This document shows positions 47,410 through 56,117 of a stretch of DNA of 56,117 nt, piece after piece. The notes under the pieces are model-generated. The model was not told the DNA's origin. It saw nothing but the letters and a program-made list of their open reading frames with translations, and did no database searches. Positions within the stretch are counted from its first letter, which is position 1; each line of letters starts with the position of its first letter. Both the position numbers and the translations under genes were made by a program. The stretch comes from an uncultured Pseudomonadota bacterium (GTDB lineage: Bacteria; Pseudomonadota; Gammaproteobacteria; CAJXQU01). The DNA is taken from NCBI GenBank assembly GCA_913058255.1, contig CAJXQU010000014.1, positions 1-56,117 on the forward strand, written 5' to 3'.

Positions 47410-49887
47410 TTAACTTTCTATATAGTACTGCTTAAGTTTGCCCATATAGACACCTGAATCGGCAAAAGAATATTGAGCATGTTTCTTAGCATCAACCATG
47501 CTCAATACGGTGCTGGTTTTTGTTGAACCAGAGTCAGCAAGCTGTTTTAAGGCATATTGGACGACAGACTTTCGAGTGTCTGCCCACTTCACGATAAAGG
47601 CCGTAAGATCAACTTTTGTTGAGAGAATGCGAGCATCAGGGACAGCTAAAACAGGAGGTGAGTCTATAATAATTAAATCAAAGACTTCACTTAGATCGGA
47701 AAGTAAATCATCCATTTTCTGTGATGGTAATAAGTCAGTCGGACTTTTCTTTGCGATACCTGCTGTGATGAGATAAACCCCTGTTTCTTTATGCTGTGTA
47801 ATCACTTGATGAACTGCTGCAGTTCCGGATAAGTACTCTGCTAGACCAGGTTGAGCTCTTACTTTGAAAGATGAATGTATAGAAGGACTACGCATGTCTG
47901 CATCAATCAAAATAGTTTTCAATCCTGCTTGGCGTTTAAGTATGGCTAAGCTTTGAGCTATGGTCGACTTACCTTCGCCGGGATAAGCCGAAGTAAACTG
48001 GATGATTTTATTTGTGTGACTACTATTCTTACCGAAAACCATGTTCGTATAGATTGAACGGATAGATTCACTTAAAGGTGATGCTGGAAATTTTTGCACA
48101 TAATCAATAGGTGTTGAGAGTTTTGATCGGAAAACGCTTAACTTAGGGATTAGACCCAACGAAGGTAAGCCAGTATCTTTTTCAACCTGAATTCCACTAC
48201 GATAGCCACTATCAAACAGTTCTCGAATAAAGACACTGAGTAGTCCGAGTAAGATTGAGCCAAACAATGCTAGAGAAAGAATGGGTAGCGTTTTTGGAAA
48301 GGAAGGTTTCCTTGCGGGTGTTGCGTAAGAAATAACCTTTGCATCCGCTCGTTGTATATCTAGATTAGTTTGTTCGGTGGTTTCTTTGTAGCGAGTTAAA
48401 AAAGTATCTAAGAGTTTCCGTGTTGCCCCTGCTTCACGTTCTAGTGCTCTTAGTTGAACTTCTTGAGTATTGGATCCCGCTAATTTATGTTCTAAAGCAG
48501 CGAGTTGGTTTTTTAATTGCTGCTCGCGAATTTGCGAAATTTTTGTTTCATTTTTAAGACCGAGAATGACCTTCTTCATTTCTGTCGAGATTTTTTTCTG
48601 CAGGTTCTTTTTCTCAGCCTGGATGTTCAAAACCTTAGGGTGTTTTCCACCATATGAAGTTGATAGTTCGGCAAGCTGACTTTGAAGTGCTATCTCTTGT
48701 TCTCTTAGTTTTCGGATCAATTCTGAATTAAGAACTTCAGCTGCGGAACCAAGGTTTTTCTTGGTCAGATCTTTAACTTGGTTCAAACGAGCCTCTTTTT
48801 CAGCACGATTGGTGCTGGCAAGGACAAGTTGAGTGTTAAGTTCTGATAGTTGCTGATTGTTAAGTGTGATTCCTTTTGTGGTTAATAATAGTCCTTTTGA
48901 CTTACGATATTCTTCGACATCAGTTTCAGCATCTTTAACTTTTTGTCTGAGAGAGTCCACACGTTGGTTTAGCCAAGTATTTGTTTTGTTAGTGACTGAG
49001 AATTTTCTTTCGATTTGATCATTTAGATAAATATCTAATATTGCATTTGCAATTTTTGCCGATAAGTTTGGATTTTCTGATGTGAATTTTAGTTCAATCA
49101 GACGAGACTCTCCAATCAATGCCAACTTCTGTTTTTTCAAAAATATTTCTATTACGGGAACATTATGGTGCGGTATAGAACTATCTATTTCTCGTTGTAC
49201 TGCTTTTTGAGTTTTAGATTTCAACTTTTCTAAAAAATTAGAAATTTTCCCTTTTTCTTTTAGCGCAGGATTAAACTCAGAAAGTTGATCAAGATCGAGC
49301 TTTTTAATTACTCTTTCAGCAATGCTGTATGAACGAAGTATTTCTAACTCATTCTGCATTGTACCGGTATCAACCTGTATGGAAGGCGTTAGCTTATTTA
49401 CCGTTAATTGTGCATCATGATTGCCGATCATGATTAATGCTTTGGAAGTGTAGCTTGGTGTCACACTCTTAATGAATACAAACACGAGGAGCATAGACAT
49501 TAGCATCGTGATGACCATTAACCACTTCCGGCGCCATAGTTTTGCTAATATTTCTCGAGGATCGATAGTTGATTCAGATGAATGGTGGTGATTACCATTT
49601 GTTGATTGAGGGCTTATCGATGACAAGGCAAGAGGTGTGCTTCCTGAAGTCTGATGGATTGTTTGTTCAAAGGCTAGCTGATGAGAAAATTCCTTCCACC
49701 ATTTTGAAAGCTGAGCAGAATGAAGTTTCTCTTGTTGAAGCAATGCATTGAACTCATTTATGTTCTTGCAACGAGCGCCCATCTCAAGAATTTTTAATTT
49801 ATATGCTTGAGTGTAATCCCTGTTCACTTTTCGAATTGAACGGGGAATTATTTTACCTTTGTCGTATGAGTTCATATTTTTTATCAT
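47410..49887 (-). CDS. Polysaccharide chain-length regulator/tyrosine kinase with N-terminal transposase-like HTH
   Basis: This 825-residue protein is a Wzc/ExoP-type co-polymerase with BY-kinase. Residues 108-142 hold the Wzz entry and first membrane helix (LWRRKWLMVITMLMSMLLVF); coiled coils fill about 310-520; a second helix is near 560. The kinase has Walker A YPGEGKST (K640), Walker A' ILIDADMRSP and Walker B LIIIDSPPVLAVPDA, and a C-terminal tyrosine cluster (Y806, Y814, Y821, Y822). Unusually, residues 25-67 (YTQAYKLKILEMGARCKNIN ... ALLQQEKLHSAQLSKWWKEF) resemble the helix-turn-helix of IS3-type transposase OrfA proteins. A low-complexity linker (78-107) joins it to Wzz. It controls polymer length and export of the polysaccharide made by the cluster. 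ATG 49875 is another possible start. Confidence 0.92.
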   Translation of the reverse strand: MIKNMNSYDKGKIIPRSIRKVNRDYTQAYKLKILEMGARCKNINEFNALLQQEKLHSAQLSKWWKEFSHQLAFEQTIHQTSGSTPLALSSISPQSTNGNHHHSSESTIDPREILAKLWRRKWLMVITMLMSMLLVFVFIKSVTPSYTSKALIMIGNHDAQLTVNKLTPSIQVDTGTMQNELEILRSYSIAERVIKKLDLDQLSEFNPALKEKGKISNFLEKLKSKTQKAVQREIDSSIPHHNVPVIEIFLKKQKLALIGESRLIELKFTSENPNLSAKIANAILDIYLNDQIERKFSVTNKTNTWLNQRVDSLRQKVKDAETDVEEYRKSKGLLLTTKGITLNNQQLSELNTQLVLASTNRAEKEARLNQVKDLTKKNLGSAAEVLNSELIRKLREQEIALQSQLAELSTSYGGKHPKVLNIQAEKKNLQKKISTEMKKVILGLKNETKISQIREQQLKNQLAALEHKLAGSNTQEVQLRALEREAGATRKLLDTFLTRYKETTEQTNLDIQRADAKVISYATPARKPSFPKTLPILSLALFGSILLGLLSVFIRELFDSGYRSGIQVEKDTGLPSLGLIPKLSVFRSKLSTPIDYVQKFPASPLSESIRSIYTNMVFGKNSSHTNKIIQFTSAYPGEGKSTIAQSLAILKRQAGLKTILIDADMRSPSIHSSFKVRAQPGLAEYLSGTAAVHQVITQHKETGVYLITAGIAKKSPTDLLPSQKMDDLLSDLSEVFDLIIIDSPPVLAVPDARILSTKVDLTAFIVKWADTRKSVVQYALKQLADSGSTKTSTVLSMVDAKKHAQYSFADSGVYMGKLKQYYIES

Positions 49888-49901: not shown

Positions 49902-50459
49902 TCAAAATAACCAATATTTTTCAGGTATTTCGATTACGTCACCAGGCAGAATTTCGGTGTCCTGTTGAGCAATTTGTTTGTCTTCTCGCAAATGTTGGGC
50001 GTGAGTAATTAACGCTTTACTATTTTTTGCTCGATAGGTATATCCGCCAGCGAGAGCAACAGCCGTAAGGACTGTCATGCCGCTAACATAAGAGTACTGA
50101 CCGGGGTTTTTTACTTCGCCGATGATGTAGAACGGGCGATAATTGAGAACCTCGATACTGACTTTAGGATCGATGAGATAGTCAGGCGATAGCCTTGACG
50201 TGATCGCCGCTGCTAGATCGGCCACGGTCAATTCAGACGCTTGAATTTCTTTTATCAAGGGCAGAGAAATTCGCCCGCTACCATCAAGTTGGAATTCTCC
50301 AGACAGATCACTATGACCAAAGACTATAACCTTGATCTTATCGCCAGCACCTAATTGATACTGAGCGGCTTTACTTGTGGATTCTGTTGCTGTGACATGT
50401 AGCGAAGAGACACTAATGACTAACAATAAAACAAGACGATGAAACATCCTTTTTTTCAC
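49902..50459 (-). CDS. Polysaccharide export protein, Wza/GumB type
   Basis: The 185-residue protein has a signal peptide (1-25, ending VTAT) and then a Poly_export domain (YQLGAGDKIKVIVFGHSDLSG, residues 34-110) followed by one SLBB domain (RPFYIIGEVKNPGQYSYVSG, about 113-170). It is short compared with E. coli Wza (379) and is close to GumB-type proteins. No lipobox cysteine follows the signal peptide, so membrane attachment is not by a lipid. It is 14 bases before the tyrosine-kinase gene and is likely to form the periplasmic/outer-membrane conduit with it and the beta-barrel protein. Confidence 0.92.
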   Translation of the reverse strand: MKKRMFHRLVLLLVISVSSLHVTATESTSKAAQYQLGAGDKIKVIVFGHSDLSGEFQLDGSGRISLPLIKEIQASELTVADLAAAITSRLSPDYLIDPKVSIEVLNYRPFYIIGEVKNPGQYSYVSGMTVLTAVALAGGYTYRAKNSKALITHAQHLREDKQIAQQDTEILPGDVIEIPEKYWLF

Positions 50460-50495: not shown

Positions 50496-51743
50496 CTATA
50501 ACTGAATACGACCGCCTAGTGAAAAGATATCTTCGGAGAAATCATTAATAATTGTTACAGAATCTGAGTTCCTTTGCTGATGGTCATAATCTAATAGTAG
50601 GTAGAAATGACGGTTGATCATATATGTGGCACCAACTCCAGTGCTGAAATACTCGTCGCTACGACTGAGTCCTTCAAAATTATCATCTGCAACAGTGAGC
50701 CTTACTTGTAACAATAAGTTACGAAGTAATTCGTGATCAACGATGAGGTTAGCTTCCGTTGAGAAAATACCTGAAGCTGAATCCAGTGTCGTTTCTTTTA
50801 TGGCGCGCGAGATGGAGCCTGTCACGGTTGTCATTTGTGAAGGTAACCAAGTCAGCGATGCTCCGCCTGTTAAGCCATCAACATCATTGAGTGCTGCATC
50901 ATCATAATTTTGAGCTTCATATCCGACAAATACGTTGCCATATAATACGCCAGATAAATCGAGGTCCGTTCCTACGGAAAAACTATAGCCATCTGAGTCA
51001 CGATTAAAACCATTGCCATCTAGGGTGTCATCATAATCAACGTGATTGATCGTGGTTCGAAGATAGGTGGTGTATTCCGGCAGGTAATCATAACCTAGCT
51101 TTAATGAGGCTTCTCGTCGGTCTCGATCGCGGTCATCGTTATCGATGATAGTCCCTGTAGTCGAGCGTGCATCATCAAAATCCAATGCTTGATACTCACC
51201 ACCAACGACGACAGAAATACGGTTGAACTGATGTTCATAGTTTGCGTATAGTGAATTTACATCTAGCTCTGTCGGGGCAGCACCTAAGACATCATCTGGT
51301 GAAAACCGTTGTTCATGTTCGTGCGAGTATTGATAACCACCAGAGAGGTTTTGAGCATGGCTCATTTCGATATTGCCATCAAAGCCAACAGAATAATCTT
51401 CATAGTCTTCACTTTCATTATCGGTATATCGACCGATCGTTGCATCGGAATGAAAGGATAAAAAATGACGACCCCAGAGAGATTCAATATTTAATGATGG
51501 TTTAACTACTGTTATAAAATCAGACTCTTCATTGGTATTGGTGGCGAAAATATTATCGCTATGCTTTTCAGATAAGGTTAGGCTAGGGTATAGACGAAAC
51601 GCTCCTGCTCGTGCTCCTAATGGTGCTACTTCTTCACGAAATCGTGATGTGACTGTTTCGGGTTTATAATTAACATCTTCGGCAATGACTGACGTTGCTG
51701 TTAATGTTAGAAGTGCCAAAGTGAATGTTTTTCGTTTATTCAT
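50496..51743 (-). CDS. Outer-membrane beta-barrel protein (BBP2-like) of EPS cluster
   Basis: The 415-residue protein has a signal peptide (1-21, ending VIAE) and a body of alternating aromatic and polar strands (for example FRLYPSLTLSEKHSDNIFAT, YSVGFDGNIEMSHAQNLSGG), with a C-terminal strand ending in GGRIQL. The NIFAT motif near the N-terminus and the repeated Y/F-x-Y patterns match the putative beta-barrel porin-2 group often encoded beside GumB/Wza and Wzz genes. It is probably the outer-membrane pore or secretin-like partner for the polysaccharide. 36 bases separate it from the export protein gene. Confidence 0.82.
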   Translation of the reverse strand: MNKRKTFTLALLTLTATSVIAEDVNYKPETVTSRFREEVAPLGARAGAFRLYPSLTLSEKHSDNIFATNTNEESDFITVVKPSLNIESLWGRHFLSFHSDATIGRYTDNESEDYEDYSVGFDGNIEMSHAQNLSGGYQYSHEHEQRFSPDDVLGAAPTELDVNSLYANYEHQFNRISVVVGGEYQALDFDDARSTTGTIIDNDDRDRDRREASLKLGYDYLPEYTTYLRTTINHVDYDDTLDGNGFNRDSDGYSFSVGTDLDLSGVLYGNVFVGYEAQNYDDAALNDVDGLTGGASLTWLPSQMTTVTGSISRAIKETTLDSASGIFSTEANLIVDHELLRNLLLQVRLTVADDNFEGLSRSDEYFSTGVGATYMINRHFYLLLDYDHQQRNSDSVTIINDFSEDIFSLGGRIQL

Positions 51744-51813: not shown

Positions 51814-53019
51814 TTACCTCTGAAAAGAAGTTTTTGTTTTGTCATAACCCAACATTACGCCCCACATCATTGCGTAGAGAATATATAAATGCCGCCAATG
51901 TGTGCTGTCGATGAAGAAGCTTTGTAGTTGAGTGCTGACAATGGTTGAAAAGACGACTAAAGCGGTCAGTTGAACTTCTGTTCGACGCATGCAGAAATGA
52001 AAGCCTTTCCAAATAGTAAAAAAAACAAATGCAAGATAAGCTGTACCAGATCCCCAACCGCACTCAGAGAATATGTAAAGGTAAACATTGTGTGGCACGA
52101 TTCCAAATTGGATGTCAGCTAAGCCAGGACCAATACCAAAAGGGTTTTCTAAGATAGCGTTGACGGCTTTCAATTGGGTAGCAAATCGCTCGTTGACATC
52201 ATAGCCTTGCACTACTTGGGCACGTTCTTGAAAGAGCTCGCTGATTGCACTAGTAGAGATTAACCAACCGATCAGAAATGAGCCTACGACAAGCGCCAGT
52301 GCTCCCATTAGGATCAACCGAGAAAGCTCTTTACTTTCTTTCAAGGTCAAAAACCGGATAGAAAGATAAATCATCATGGCGAGGCCAAGATTCAGCCACG
52401 ATCCACGTGAAAAACCTAATAATAAGCCAACCGATAGTGTTCCAAGCATGAATACATTCATCAAAAAGTGGCTATCTTTTCCGCTTTCTAACCTCGACAA
52501 GTAGAGCATGAAAACGGGTACTAAATATGGCCCATAAACATTGGGATCTTTAAAGGTACTTTTGACGCGATCAAATAATAGAAAGTGCTCTGCATAGGGT
52601 ATGAGTCGAGCGTAGGCCAGTGCCCCTATTAGAACTACTATAAAAGTACCGAAAGCGTAACCGCTCCATACTATCGGTAGAAATCGTTGAGGGTTTTCAT
52701 AGATCAGGCAGGTTAGAAACAGCCAGAAAAAGACTAGAAAAAAACGTATGCTGATGGGTTTTATCGAGGCCACAGGATCAACAGACTGTATACCAGCAAT
52801 AATATTAAATACTAAAAAAATCCCCCAAAAGGCAAGTGCGAGTCCGATGCCTTTTGGGATCTTCATCCCTGTCCCAAAAGAGATAAAGATGAGAGCCGCG
52901 CCCAAAAGCTCAAAGGGGGATGGCTCGAACATGACAAAGCCACTAAGGGCGATCAAAAGCCAAACAAACTTAAGGCTTGTCGTGCGATGTGGTAAAATTT
53001 CGTTATCTAATGGGGACAT
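51814..53019 (-). CDS. O-antigen ligase/Wzy-type polymerase family protein
   Basis: The 401-residue inner-membrane protein has about ten to twelve hydrophobic segments and a large periplasmic loop (about 235-310) with NAILENPFGIGPGLADIQFG then VPHNVYLYIFSECGWG. The G-x-G-x-G and PHNxYL elements are typical of the Wzy_C/O-antigen ligase (RfaL/WaaL) superfamily. In this context it is more likely the polymerase of the exopolysaccharide than an LPS ligase, but sequence alone does not separate them. ATG 53019 is preferred to TTG 53028. It is divergent from the glycosidase gene with only 57 bases between. Confidence 0.88.
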   Translation of the reverse strand: MSPLDNEILPHRTTSLKFVWLLIALSGFVMFEPSPFELLGAALIFISFGTGMKIPKGIGLALAFWGIFLVFNIIAGIQSVDPVASIKPISIRFFLVFFWLFLTCLIYENPQRFLPIVWSGYAFGTFIVVLIGALAYARLIPYAEHFLLFDRVKSTFKDPNVYGPYLVPVFMLYLSRLESGKDSHFLMNVFMLGTLSVGLLLGFSRGSWLNLGLAMMIYLSIRFLTLKESKELSRLILMGALALVVGSFLIGWLISTSAISELFQERAQVVQGYDVNERFATQLKAVNAILENPFGIGPGLADIQFGIVPHNVYLYIFSECGWGSGTAYLAFVFFTIWKGFHFCMRRTEVQLTALVVFSTIVSTQLQSFFIDSTHWRHLYILYAMMWGVMLGYDKTKTSFQR

Positions 53020-53076
53020 ACTGCGCAATAAAGTGTTCTAATCTGTTATGTATCGACTGAAAGTAGGGATAGTGAA

Positions 53077-54636
53077 GTGAAGTGTGCGATCAAAAAAATC
53101 ATGCTGGCCGTTTTATGGTCAGTTTCTTTAAATATTTCTGCCAGTGAGAAAGTCGTGATAACCGTGGCAGATCCGGTTCCATTCCATATACATCCTCAAG
53201 GAAAGGCTTTTACCATCGAGCTTTCGGCACGATCTACTCGTGAAGGTTTGTCTGTGGCTTATTATTGGCGTGACTTCTCTGGCAAAGCCTTGTCGCCACT
53301 ACGAAAGCTGACTATCAATTCAAATCAACCTCTAAGGTTGCAATCGCCTTCATCAGTGAGTGGTTACTATGGTCTAGTTTTCAAACCAGGAAAATATAAA
53401 ATCCAGTTGAATGATCGTTGGCCAGGTGAAGAGCTCGTGTATGGTTTCGGTATTGGAGAACAAAACCCAGTTCCTCAGCGTAGTGACGATTTAAACGGCA
53501 GGTTTGGAACCGTACATACGAACCGACAAGATCCATATATGCCGAGTTGGATAAAAACAATGACTTGGAAAACCGCTCAAGCATCAGAATGGAATAAAGA
53601 GAATAGTTCTATCGAACAAGCCTACTTTCACGAACTACCGCTGATTATTGAAGATGAGTGGGATAGCGATGATAGGTCTCCAGTTTCGTTGGCTCAGTTG
53701 GAACAACTAACAAGAAAAGTCACTGAGTATTTTGAGGCCGATCAGCGAATTAAAGTTTGGGAGCTGGGCATAGAGGAAAACCTACGGGATAACTTTAAAC
53801 AAGCTTATTATTGGGATAACTTGTCGGCAAAGTCATTTGCAGTTCGACAAGCGGCTGACTTTGTAAATCCAGAAATTAAATTGATTTATCAAATTGCAGA
53901 GCTAGAGATGGAACCTGTTCGACTCTTTCTTAACAGTCAGGCTGCTCAAAATTTTGATATTTTATCGTTACATCCTTATCAATGGCCAGAGTTTGCAGCG
54001 GCTGAAAGTTGGCTAAAAAGTTATTTGCAAGCAGTCAGAGAAGAGATGCAACTAGCTCAACAGAATATGCCGATCTGGTTTACTGAAGTCGGAGCTCCGC
54101 ATCACGGAAATCATCCAAAACACTTTTTTGGTTACCCTATTAACAATCAAGAAAAAGGTGTTTCAGTTCAAGGTCTCACTAGGCAACGTGCCGCCGCGTT
54201 TATGATCAAGGTACATGTGGTAGCGCTGCAGGAAGGTGTCGAAAAGATCTTTTGGTATAACTATATTGATCGAGAATCTGATCGAAAATATGCCGAGAAC
54301 CATTTCGGAATGATCGATTTTTGGGGTTATCCGAAGCCGGTTTATCTTGCCTATATAGCAATGTACAGTCAGCTAAAAAATAAAAAACCTGAGGGACTTA
54401 TTCCTAGAGAAGACGATCTGCTAATTTATGTTTTTGACGACTTGCTTGAAACTACTTATGTCGTTTGGAAAAAGAAAAACCTAAAAGATAAAAGCTCTCT
54501 GCAAGTATCATTAAGTGAATATAATATTGATCTAGAAACCGCTATTATCACTGATGCGGTAGGAACACCGTACTCGTTAGTTGAAGGTTTGTTAGATATT
54601 GGAGAAACGCCCTTGTTTATCACACGACAAAAATAG
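53077..54636 (+). CDS. Periplasmic clan-A glycoside hydrolase of the EPS cluster
   Basis: The 519-residue protein has a signal peptide (1-23, ending ISAS), an N-terminal beta-sandwich-like region (about 25-135) and a TIM-barrel-like domain (about 150-430). Two glutamates fit clan GH-A active sites: E233 in KVWELGIEEN (the acid/base; the usual preceding Asn is Ile here) and E337 in PIWFTEVGAPHHG (the nucleophile). DILSLHPYQWPEF and KIFWYNYID support this. The layout recalls PslG-like (GH39) hydrolases encoded within EPS operons, which trim the polymer in the periplasm. The start is GTG 53077. Substrate unknown. It is the only plus-strand gene of the cluster and convergent with the flippase gene. 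Confidence 0.8.
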   Translation: MKCAIKKIMLAVLWSVSLNISASEKVVITVADPVPFHIHPQGKAFTIELSARSTREGLSVAYYWRDFSGKALSPLRKLTINSNQPLRLQSPSSVSGYYGLVFKPGKYKIQLNDRWPGEELVYGFGIGEQNPVPQRSDDLNGRFGTVHTNRQDPYMPSWIKTMTWKTAQASEWNKENSSIEQAYFHELPLIIEDEWDSDDRSPVSLAQLEQLTRKVTEYFEADQRIKVWELGIEENLRDNFKQAYYWDNLSAKSFAVRQAADFVNPEIKLIYQIAELEMEPVRLFLNSQAAQNFDILSLHPYQWPEFAAAESWLKSYLQAVREEMQLAQQNMPIWFTEVGAPHHGNHPKHFFGYPINNQEKGVSVQGLTRQRAAAFMIKVHVVALQEGVEKIFWYNYIDRESDRKYAENHFGMIDFWGYPKPVYLAYIAMYSQLKNKKPEGLIPREDDLLIYVFDDLLETTYVVWKKKNLKDKSSLQVSLSEYNIDLETAIITDAVGTPYSLVEGLLDIGETPLFITRQK

Positions 54637-54662: not shown

Positions 54663-56006
54663 TTACTTATATTCGCGGGCAAAAGAAAGAACTGTTGGAT
54701 GAATTTTAAGGTGTTTTTTGACTAGAGTAAGCATCCACAAATTCCAGAAAATAGTGACTAAAATCACCGCCATAGCCGCACCAATCATCCCAAATAAAGG
54801 GATAAATATAGCGTTTAAAATTAACAAGATAACTAAGGCCGAGCCAAACACCATCAAGCTATAGTCTTGATGACCTGTGACGTTTAAAAGGCTGGCAACA
54901 GGGCCAATCGAAATAGTGACCAGCTGGCTCAAAGCGAGTAGGGCAAAGACTTCATAGCCGGCAACAAACTCTTCTCCGAAAACACCTAGAATAAATTTCC
55001 CGAAAATTATAAAAACAATGATGCAGATAAGCCCTGGCCAGAACATTAGTTGGGTACTATGAGCGGTTAGTTTCTGTAGTGCAGGCATATCTTGCTCGGC
55101 AAAAGACAGAGCTGCTTTTGGGCGAAAAATACTATCGACAGCGTAAATCATAAAGCTGATCAGCATGGCTATTCTGAAAGCTATACTAAAAATTGCGACC
55201 TGATCAGCGGGTAGAAAAAAACCGACCATGACGACATTGATTTCTGCAAGGAAGCCGATAAATAAAACAGGGATCAATTGAGGCACTCCAATCCTGATCC
55301 ATGAACGTGTTTGAAATGTTGGCTTAGAATTACCCAATGTCCTTTTTAAATGGGTTTTGAAAAAAAGGAAGTGACCCGCAACGACGATAATCATCGCGAG
55401 TAATTGATATGCCATGACGGTTTCTGCATCGAGACTATTGGTTGAGAACCAAATTACCGCGACAAATCCTAATAAAATTAAAGGGCGTATCACCGTATTG
55501 GGTAAGATCATCAAGGCAAACCATGAAAATGCATGGGAGACAGATTCATGAAAAACGGCGATCAAATAAACCGGAATAGTGAAGATGGCTATCAATAGGG
55601 TATTTTTATAGTCAATATCAACTACTCCATCAAAAGAATAGATGACACCACCAAGTATGATGACGGCCAGTATGCCGATTCCAATAAGAATTTGACGACC
55701 ACGTAAAATAAAACCATCGATTAAATCAAAACGTTTGTCGCTGATTGCTTGGCCTATGACTCGGAACGAAGCGGACTCGTAACCAATGCCTATCACTGTC
55801 GAGAGAATGATCATCCACGAAAAGGCGTAAACATATATACCCAGCTGATATGCTCCCATCCATCTTGCTAGTAGCAATTGTGTGAGGAAGGCTAGCGCGG
55901 CCCCTAATAGTCGGCAACCGAACATTAGTGTTGATGCGCCAAGCAGGGAGGAGAGGCTATTATGAGTCTTTTTTTCCGCTGAACGGTTTTTACTTGATAC
56001 TGACAT
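54663..56006 (-). CDS. Wzx-type polysaccharide flippase
   Basis: The protein has 447 residues with about 12-14 hydrophobic segments and belongs to the polysaccharide transporter/MATE-MurJ superfamily: LLGASTLMFGCRLLGAALAF at the N-terminus, LLARWMGAYQLGIYVYAFSW, and LNVTGHQDYSLMVF late in the chain. It should flip undecaprenyl-linked repeat units to the periplasm for the Wzy-type protein. The true start is ATG 56006 (MSVSSKNRSAEKK). The open frame runs on to 56084, but those first residues, MYKRQ, come from the sequencing adapter at the contig end. Genes upstream of it are lost at the contig edge. Confidence 0.9.
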   Translation of the reverse strand: MSVSSKNRSAEKKTHNSLSSLLGASTLMFGCRLLGAALAFLTQLLLARWMGAYQLGIYVYAFSWMIILSTVIGIGYESASFRVIGQAISDKRFDLIDGFILRGRQILIGIGILAVIILGGVIYSFDGVVDIDYKNTLLIAIFTIPVYLIAVFHESVSHAFSWFALMILPNTVIRPLILLGFVAVIWFSTNSLDAETVMAYQLLAMIIVVAGHFLFFKTHLKRTLGNSKPTFQTRSWIRIGVPQLIPVLFIGFLAEINVVMVGFFLPADQVAIFSIAFRIAMLISFMIYAVDSIFRPKAALSFAEQDMPALQKLTAHSTQLMFWPGLICIIVFIIFGKFILGVFGEEFVAGYEVFALLALSQLVTISIGPVASLLNVTGHQDYSLMVFGSALVILLILNAIFIPLFGMIGAAMAVILVTIFWNLWMLTLVKKHLKIHPTVLSFAREYK

Positions 56007-56069
56007 ATTTAATGTGTGTGAAAATGTTGAAGCACTATACAACTGATCGGTAAACAATATATATAAGGA

Positions 56070-56117
56070 CTGTCTCTTATACACATCTGACGCTGCCGAC
56101 GATCTACTCTGTGTAGA
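56070..56117. other. Nextera sequencing adapter, not genomic
   Basis: The last 48 bases begin with the 19-base transposon mosaic end used in Nextera libraries (CTGTCTCTTATACACATCT), followed by GACGCTGCCGACGA, the Read 1 adapter in reverse complement. The next eight bases, TCTACTCT, are the reverse complement of the i5 index AGAGTAGA (known as N504/S504), and GTGTAGA begins the P5 side. The genome ends at or before 56069. Confidence 0.98.

Follow-up and report, generated by a model that had tools for sequence, protein, structure and literature searches.

Wzc kinases are master regulators of Wzx/Wzy polysaccharide export. In Escherichia coli Wzc, the cytoplasmic N-terminus is short, with the membrane helix at residues 31–50, and the unphosphorylated octamer falls apart once the protein is phosphorylated (PMC8285477). 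Other BY-kinases have been connected with the chromosome or with DNA-binding proteins: the capsule kinase CpsD of Streptococcus pneumoniae influences chromosome segregation through ParB (PMC4574921), and PtkA phosphorylates a tyrosine within the helix-turn-helix (HTH) of FatR, which results in weaker DNA binding (PMC3814354). With regard to transposases, the binding domain of the IS2 transposase is a bundle composed of a helix plus an HTH (H+HTH; PMC3219604).

The window analyzed here, i.e., the whole stretch of 56,117 nucleotides, encodes a polysaccharide co-polymerase of the Wzc/ExoP type, a predicted tyrosine autokinase, whose N-terminus carries an OrfA-like domain. Like E. coli Wzc and Rhizobium ExoP, this protein comprises a Wzz domain, a coiled periplasmic region, a kinase with Walker A, A' and B motifs and C-terminal tyrosines, and its gene adjoins that of a Wza protein within a Wzx/Wzy-type locus. 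In contrast to those systems, its first membrane helix is preceded by some 105 additional residues, the OrfA HTH included. We estimate at about 0.95 the probability that the window protein is a Wzc kinase bearing an OrfA HTH derived from an IS3-family insertion sequence. Literature searches retrieved no earlier description of a Wzc with an OrfA HTH.

Results

Domain Layout and Genomic Context

The gene occupies positions 47410..49887 of the minus strand, with its ATG at 49887 and the stop codon at 47410–47412, and the uninterrupted frame described in the first-pass annotation was confirmed (825 aa; the features below lie on the same strand). Following a variable stretch (residues 1–14), an IS3 OrfA-type three-helix HTH domain extends over residues 15–70 (49678..49845), as supported by an OrfA profile, hhalign, the predicted helices and purifying selection. 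Its last part is the putative DNA-recognition helix SAQLSKWWKEFSHQ (residues 57–70; 49678..49719), assigned on the basis of the predicted helix, conservation and the motif S.QL..W. The Ser/Thr/His-rich linker that had been proposed to join the HTH to the Wzz membrane helix was located at residues 71–105 (49573..49677) from ortholog identity and low pLDDT, and this fast-evolving segment occupies the place of the OrfA leucine zipper. Next come the Wzz domain, including the first membrane helix (residues 107–197; 49297..49569; PF02706, E = 1.7e-12, 47.9 bits vs. a cut-off of 25.5), a coiled periplasmic region, and the GNVR region leading to the second membrane helix (residues 474–556; 48220..48468), where the match to PF13807 was weak (E = 4.9e-5, 23.6 bits vs. 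a curated cut-off of 27.7) and positioned as expected.

The BY-kinase domain (residues 607–805; 47473..48069) scored 140.8 bits with TIGR01007, with a cut-off of 108.05, in agreement with the earlier claim that the whole kinase is intact downstream. Walker A (GEGKST), Walker A' (ILIDADMRSP) and Walker B (LIIIDSPP) motifs were read from the translation, an AAA_31 match was also present, and PDB matches of the domain comprised CapA/CapB, Wzc and VpsO. The C-terminal tail (residues 806–825; 47413..47472), likewise read from the sequence, contains tyrosines 806, 814, 821 and 822 as a putative autophosphorylation cluster. Judged by almost all of the features examined, with GNVR scoring below its cut-off, the window protein is a Wzc kinase.

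The Wzc gene is the last of a minus-strand series that starts with a Wzx-type flippase (54663..56084; PF01943, E = 2e-11), followed by a Wzy/O-antigen-ligase-like polymerase (51814..53028; PF04932, E = 5.3e-9), an outer-membrane beta-barrel (BBP2_2/EpsL-like; 50496..51743; PF10082, E = 1.5e-102) and, directly upstream of the Wzc gene, a Wza-type polysaccharide export protein (49902..50459; PF02563, E = 2.7e-22). On the basis of this gene set, the region was assigned as a Wzx/Wzy-type export locus. It also includes, on the plus strand at 53077–54636, a gene for a 519-aa protein with zero Pfam or NCBIfam matches at E 0.01.

Relationship of the N-Terminal Domain to IS3 OrfA Proteins

When relatives were searched with the whole protein, the hits comprised Wzc-type proteins, ParA/MinD-type ATPases and a 164-aa frame that matched window residues 16–68 with 41% identity over 53 aa (E = 3.2e-4 per genome). 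This frame is the stand-alone OrfA of an IS3-type element, which includes an OrfB partner with an rve integrase core (PF00665, E = 3.6e-20) and is bounded by 24-bp inverted repeats with TG..CA termini. Across 369 gammaproteobacterial genomes, nine short, non-Wzc ORFs from eight genomes matched the segment; all nine read as OrfA, and eight were directly followed by an rve-type OrfB frame, truncated in one of these cases.

A profile built from these OrfAs, whose score for the window protein is biased because the window sequence was used to gather it, gave 43.0 bits for this protein, 48.7 bits for its residues 1–109 alone, 42.7 bits for the same-genus ortholog and 36.5 bits for the Wzc of USCgamma-Taylor, compared to a maximum of 10.4 bits in 1000 shuffles; none of the remaining Wzc proteins exceeded 3 bits. 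The score of the USCgamma-Taylor protein is unbiased, since that protein was found via its kinase part, and its two HTH copies reached 31.3 and 18.2 bits vs. shuffle maxima of 8.0 and 5.8. Matches persisted when any single OrfA group was dropped from the profile, and hhalign aligned the fused domain with OrfA at Prob 97.7 (E 2.2e-12). Residues C40, E53 and W63 were invariant or nearly so across fused and free OrfA forms, and S.QL..W was common to the putative recognition helix and the OrfAs. The OrfA likeness originally noted for residues 25–67 was hence confirmed, with 41% identity and profile scores of 43–49 bits.

With respect to the HMM search proposed in that annotation, the OrfA-subgroup profile was positive, whereas Pfam HTH_Tnp_1 gave no significant match to the window protein, matched the ortholog at only E = 0.85, and residues 1–109 alone matched no Pfam family up to E = 10. 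The OrfA link of the fused domain emerges with OrfAs of the right subgroup. Searching PDB sequences with the fused domain yielded chance-level matches only; with a related OrfA as the query, the Brinker DNA-binding domain was retrieved (E = 0.76).

Structure prediction was in line with an HTH-type bundle. AlphaFold modeled residues 1–110 with three confident helices (27–38, 43–53 and 57–70; block pLDDT 81–91), disordered HTH flanks and a linker of low pLDDT, and the helices of the model are arranged like the H+HTH bundle of the IS2 transposase (PMC3219604). Its structural neighbours are HTH and homeodomain proteins; the Brinker DNA-binding domain ranked first (Z 4.4), ahead of TnpE of Shigella (Z 3.8), and such modest scores do not prove function. 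Foldseek with the fused domain gave no match at E below 0.001, and the model of the USCgamma-Taylor extension was of low confidence (mean pLDDT 53), giving a helix pattern only.

The window domain thus resembles IS3 OrfA (PF01527, HTH_Tnp_1) in its three-helix H+HTH, register and key residues, but differs in lacking the zipper, OrfB frameshift, DDE domain and terminal repeats, and in being joined to a membrane kinase. In particular, the OrfA profile match stops at position 92, with the zipper part aligning nowhere after the HTH; the frame runs on into Wzz and kinase, with no OrfB/rve DDE domain downstream and no transposase adjoining. For the single repeat type sought, the terminal repeat of a related insertion sequence (in L031), the window contained no match with three or fewer mismatches. 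The absence of leucine zipper, OrfB and terminal repeats indicates a domesticated domain, not a transposase. No further copy of the N-terminal extension was found in the window genome. This genome (G000; contigs C2, C7, C8, C9 and C11) has seven other OrfA-like places above the Pfam cut-off; six of them were aligned, the hhalign match to the fused domain spanning just 19 columns, and none was close.

Conservation and Distribution of the Domain

Compared with the same-genus ortholog, residues 15–70 showed 66% identity, with a pS of 0.84 (saturated) and a pN of 0.22; the corresponding values were 69% and a pN of 0.19 for the Wzz part, and 32% and a pN of 0.45 for the linker. Because the HTH is as conserved as Wzz, with synonymous sites saturated and the linker diverged, the domain is kept by purifying selection. 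Residues 53–64, which run up to the putative recognition helix and take in a large part of it, do not differ from the ortholog, and residues 1–70 are net basic (14 K+R vs. 6 D+E). Conservation of the recognition helix could also be due to folding or to a protein partner.

Of the 139 distinct Wzc/Wzz frames examined, the OrfA-type domain was present in four proteins from three lineages: the window genus (two species), USCgamma-Taylor and Chromatiales bacterium Ww634. The remaining frames, including those of Crenothrix and Methylobacter, were devoid of it; in these two the Wzc starts right before the membrane helix. Since ordinary Wzc/Wzz proteins lack the domain, it is not the usual Wzz N-terminus, an explanation that was examined across the family and did not apply. 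A survey of methylotrophs for the same N-terminus was positive in USCgamma-Taylor but negative in Crenothrix and Methylobacter. In a phylum-wide scan of 398 genomes, the HTH part was matched only in the window's own Wzc, among the matches listed, and none of the 402 plasmid records with Wzc-like matches covered 80% of the query. Overall, profile, register, predicted fold, conservation and rarity gave good support to the initial proposal of a captured OrfA-type HTH at the cytoplasmic end.

The Wzc of the methane oxidiser USCgamma-Taylor (L082:781-1419) has a long extension with two HTH-like repeats about 80 residues apart, which to judge from their sequence represent a duplicated OrfA domain. 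In Ww634 (L122:4068-7301), the HTH is followed by a proline/alanine-rich linker of about 270 residues with internal repeats. The Ww634 domain gave no score with the first OrfA profile and shared 49–67% identity with another OrfA group, one member of which precedes an IS3-type OrfB. As the OrfA subgroups differ, two captures are favoured over one ancient gain with losses or swaps, and the Ww634 domain probably represents a second, independent capture from a different IS3 subgroup. In a tree of 38 Wzc proteins, those of the window, its ortholog and USCgamma-Taylor grouped together, and the placement of Ww634 and Crenothrix was poorly supported, with labels on the rerooted tree being approximate.

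Discussion

As the most likely mode of action, we propose that the OrfA HTH of this Wzc still binds DNA on the cytoplasmic side of the membrane, close to the kinase. An unphosphorylated octamer would present up to eight HTHs and could bind DNA tightly through avidity, autophosphorylation would scatter the octamer into monomers and release the DNA, and the DNA might in this manner report the state of the export machine, through local gene control or nucleoid attachment. This model builds on the solved Wzc, whose unphosphorylated form is octameric and whose phosphorylated form is monomeric (PMC8285477); given the loss of the OrfA dimerisation zipper, DNA binding would rest on Wzc oligomerisation. 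No DNA binding was seen for CpsD itself (PMC4574921), which counts against the model, as do the weak fold matches and the lack of a terminal-repeat-like site in the window for the repeat type sought, and we propose DNA binding by the fused HTH tentatively, with the odds leaning somewhat against it. A DNA tether, a partner of the kinase domain and a regulator, the roles suggested in the first-pass annotation, are tentative as well. The whole statement, i.e., a domesticated OrfA HTH on Wzc together with a DNA-binding octamer/monomer switch, comes close to an even chance without reaching it.

The main rival to DNA binding is a protein-docking role, in which the HTH would dock on the kinase domain, Wzy or a cytoplasmic partner and tune octamer assembly. 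HTH folds have frequently been co-opted for protein contacts, which speaks for this possibility, as do the location of the HTH on the same membrane side as the kinase, the loss of the OrfA zipper and a conservation that is compatible with any function. The putative recognition helix is, however, the best conserved part and the domain is still basic; moreover, the doubling in USCgamma-Taylor and the different OrfA subgroup in Ww634 point to a property shared by OrfA HTHs, most obviously DNA binding, and docking is in our opinion less likely than not. We give only a small chance to a switch in which the kinase phosphorylates Y25 and Y29 of its own HTH and directly switches off DNA binding, over and above what disassembly achieves: both tyrosines are kept in the same-genus ortholog and PtkA offers a precedent in the HTH tyrosine of FatR (PMC3814354), but Y29 is common in ordinary OrfAs, so that it may have a structural role, and the USCgamma-Taylor copies do not retain it.

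The selection data disfavour two further readings. That the domain is a functionless passenger, an in-frame fusion tolerated after an old IS insertion, would fit its rare and patchy occurrence in three lineages, with loss or lack of gain in the close relatives Crenothrix and Methylobacter; nevertheless, the HTH evolves as slowly as Wzz while the linker diverges freely, and the domain is shared with USCgamma-Taylor and duplicated there, which makes this reading quite improbable. A misannotated start, with translation beginning after the HTH and the upstream frame being chance or a decayed OrfA, has very little probability. The ribosome-binding site before the ATG is weak on inspection, but residues 15–70 are conserved at the protein level with synonymous sites saturated, there is no ATG from residue 36 to the first membrane helix, and open extensions occur in three lineages. 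In view of that protein-level conservation, the start codon before the HTH is in all likelihood genuine.

Returning to DNA binding, the window kinase would be tied to the chromosome in a similar way to the capsule-type kinase CpsD, which works via a separate ParB (PMC4574921), although here the DNA-binding-type domain is built in. This makes a coupling of coat synthesis with the cell cycle or with genes directly testable and, if DNA binding holds true, the export machine could be physically linked to DNA. A broader statement, with at least two OrfA captures from different IS3 subgroups in one Wzc clade and phosphorylation-switched DNA binding that couples export to the chromosome, seems rather improbable as a whole. 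SETMAR (PMC9062482) and F-box genes (PMC12062965) likewise combine a transposon DNA-binding domain with a host protein and have kept it, but those captures are eukaryotic, mariner-type and soluble, unlike a bacterial IS3 OrfA on a membrane export kinase. Capture of a bacterial transposase domain by a membrane enzyme, apparently recurrent, adds to these mostly eukaryotic examples.

As regards gene neighbourhoods, inspection of ORF starts indicated that the Wzc of Ww634 is accompanied by products resembling a two-component regulator pair and a beta-helix protein, not Wza. In a same-genus genome (G001, contig C77; L034:5504-6264), the start of the flippase almost abuts the sequence for the C-terminal kinase of Wzc; what would lie between them, from the ligase, barrel and Wza genes to the N-terminal part of Wzc, is missing. 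The export locus has either undergone a large deletion here or been misassembled.
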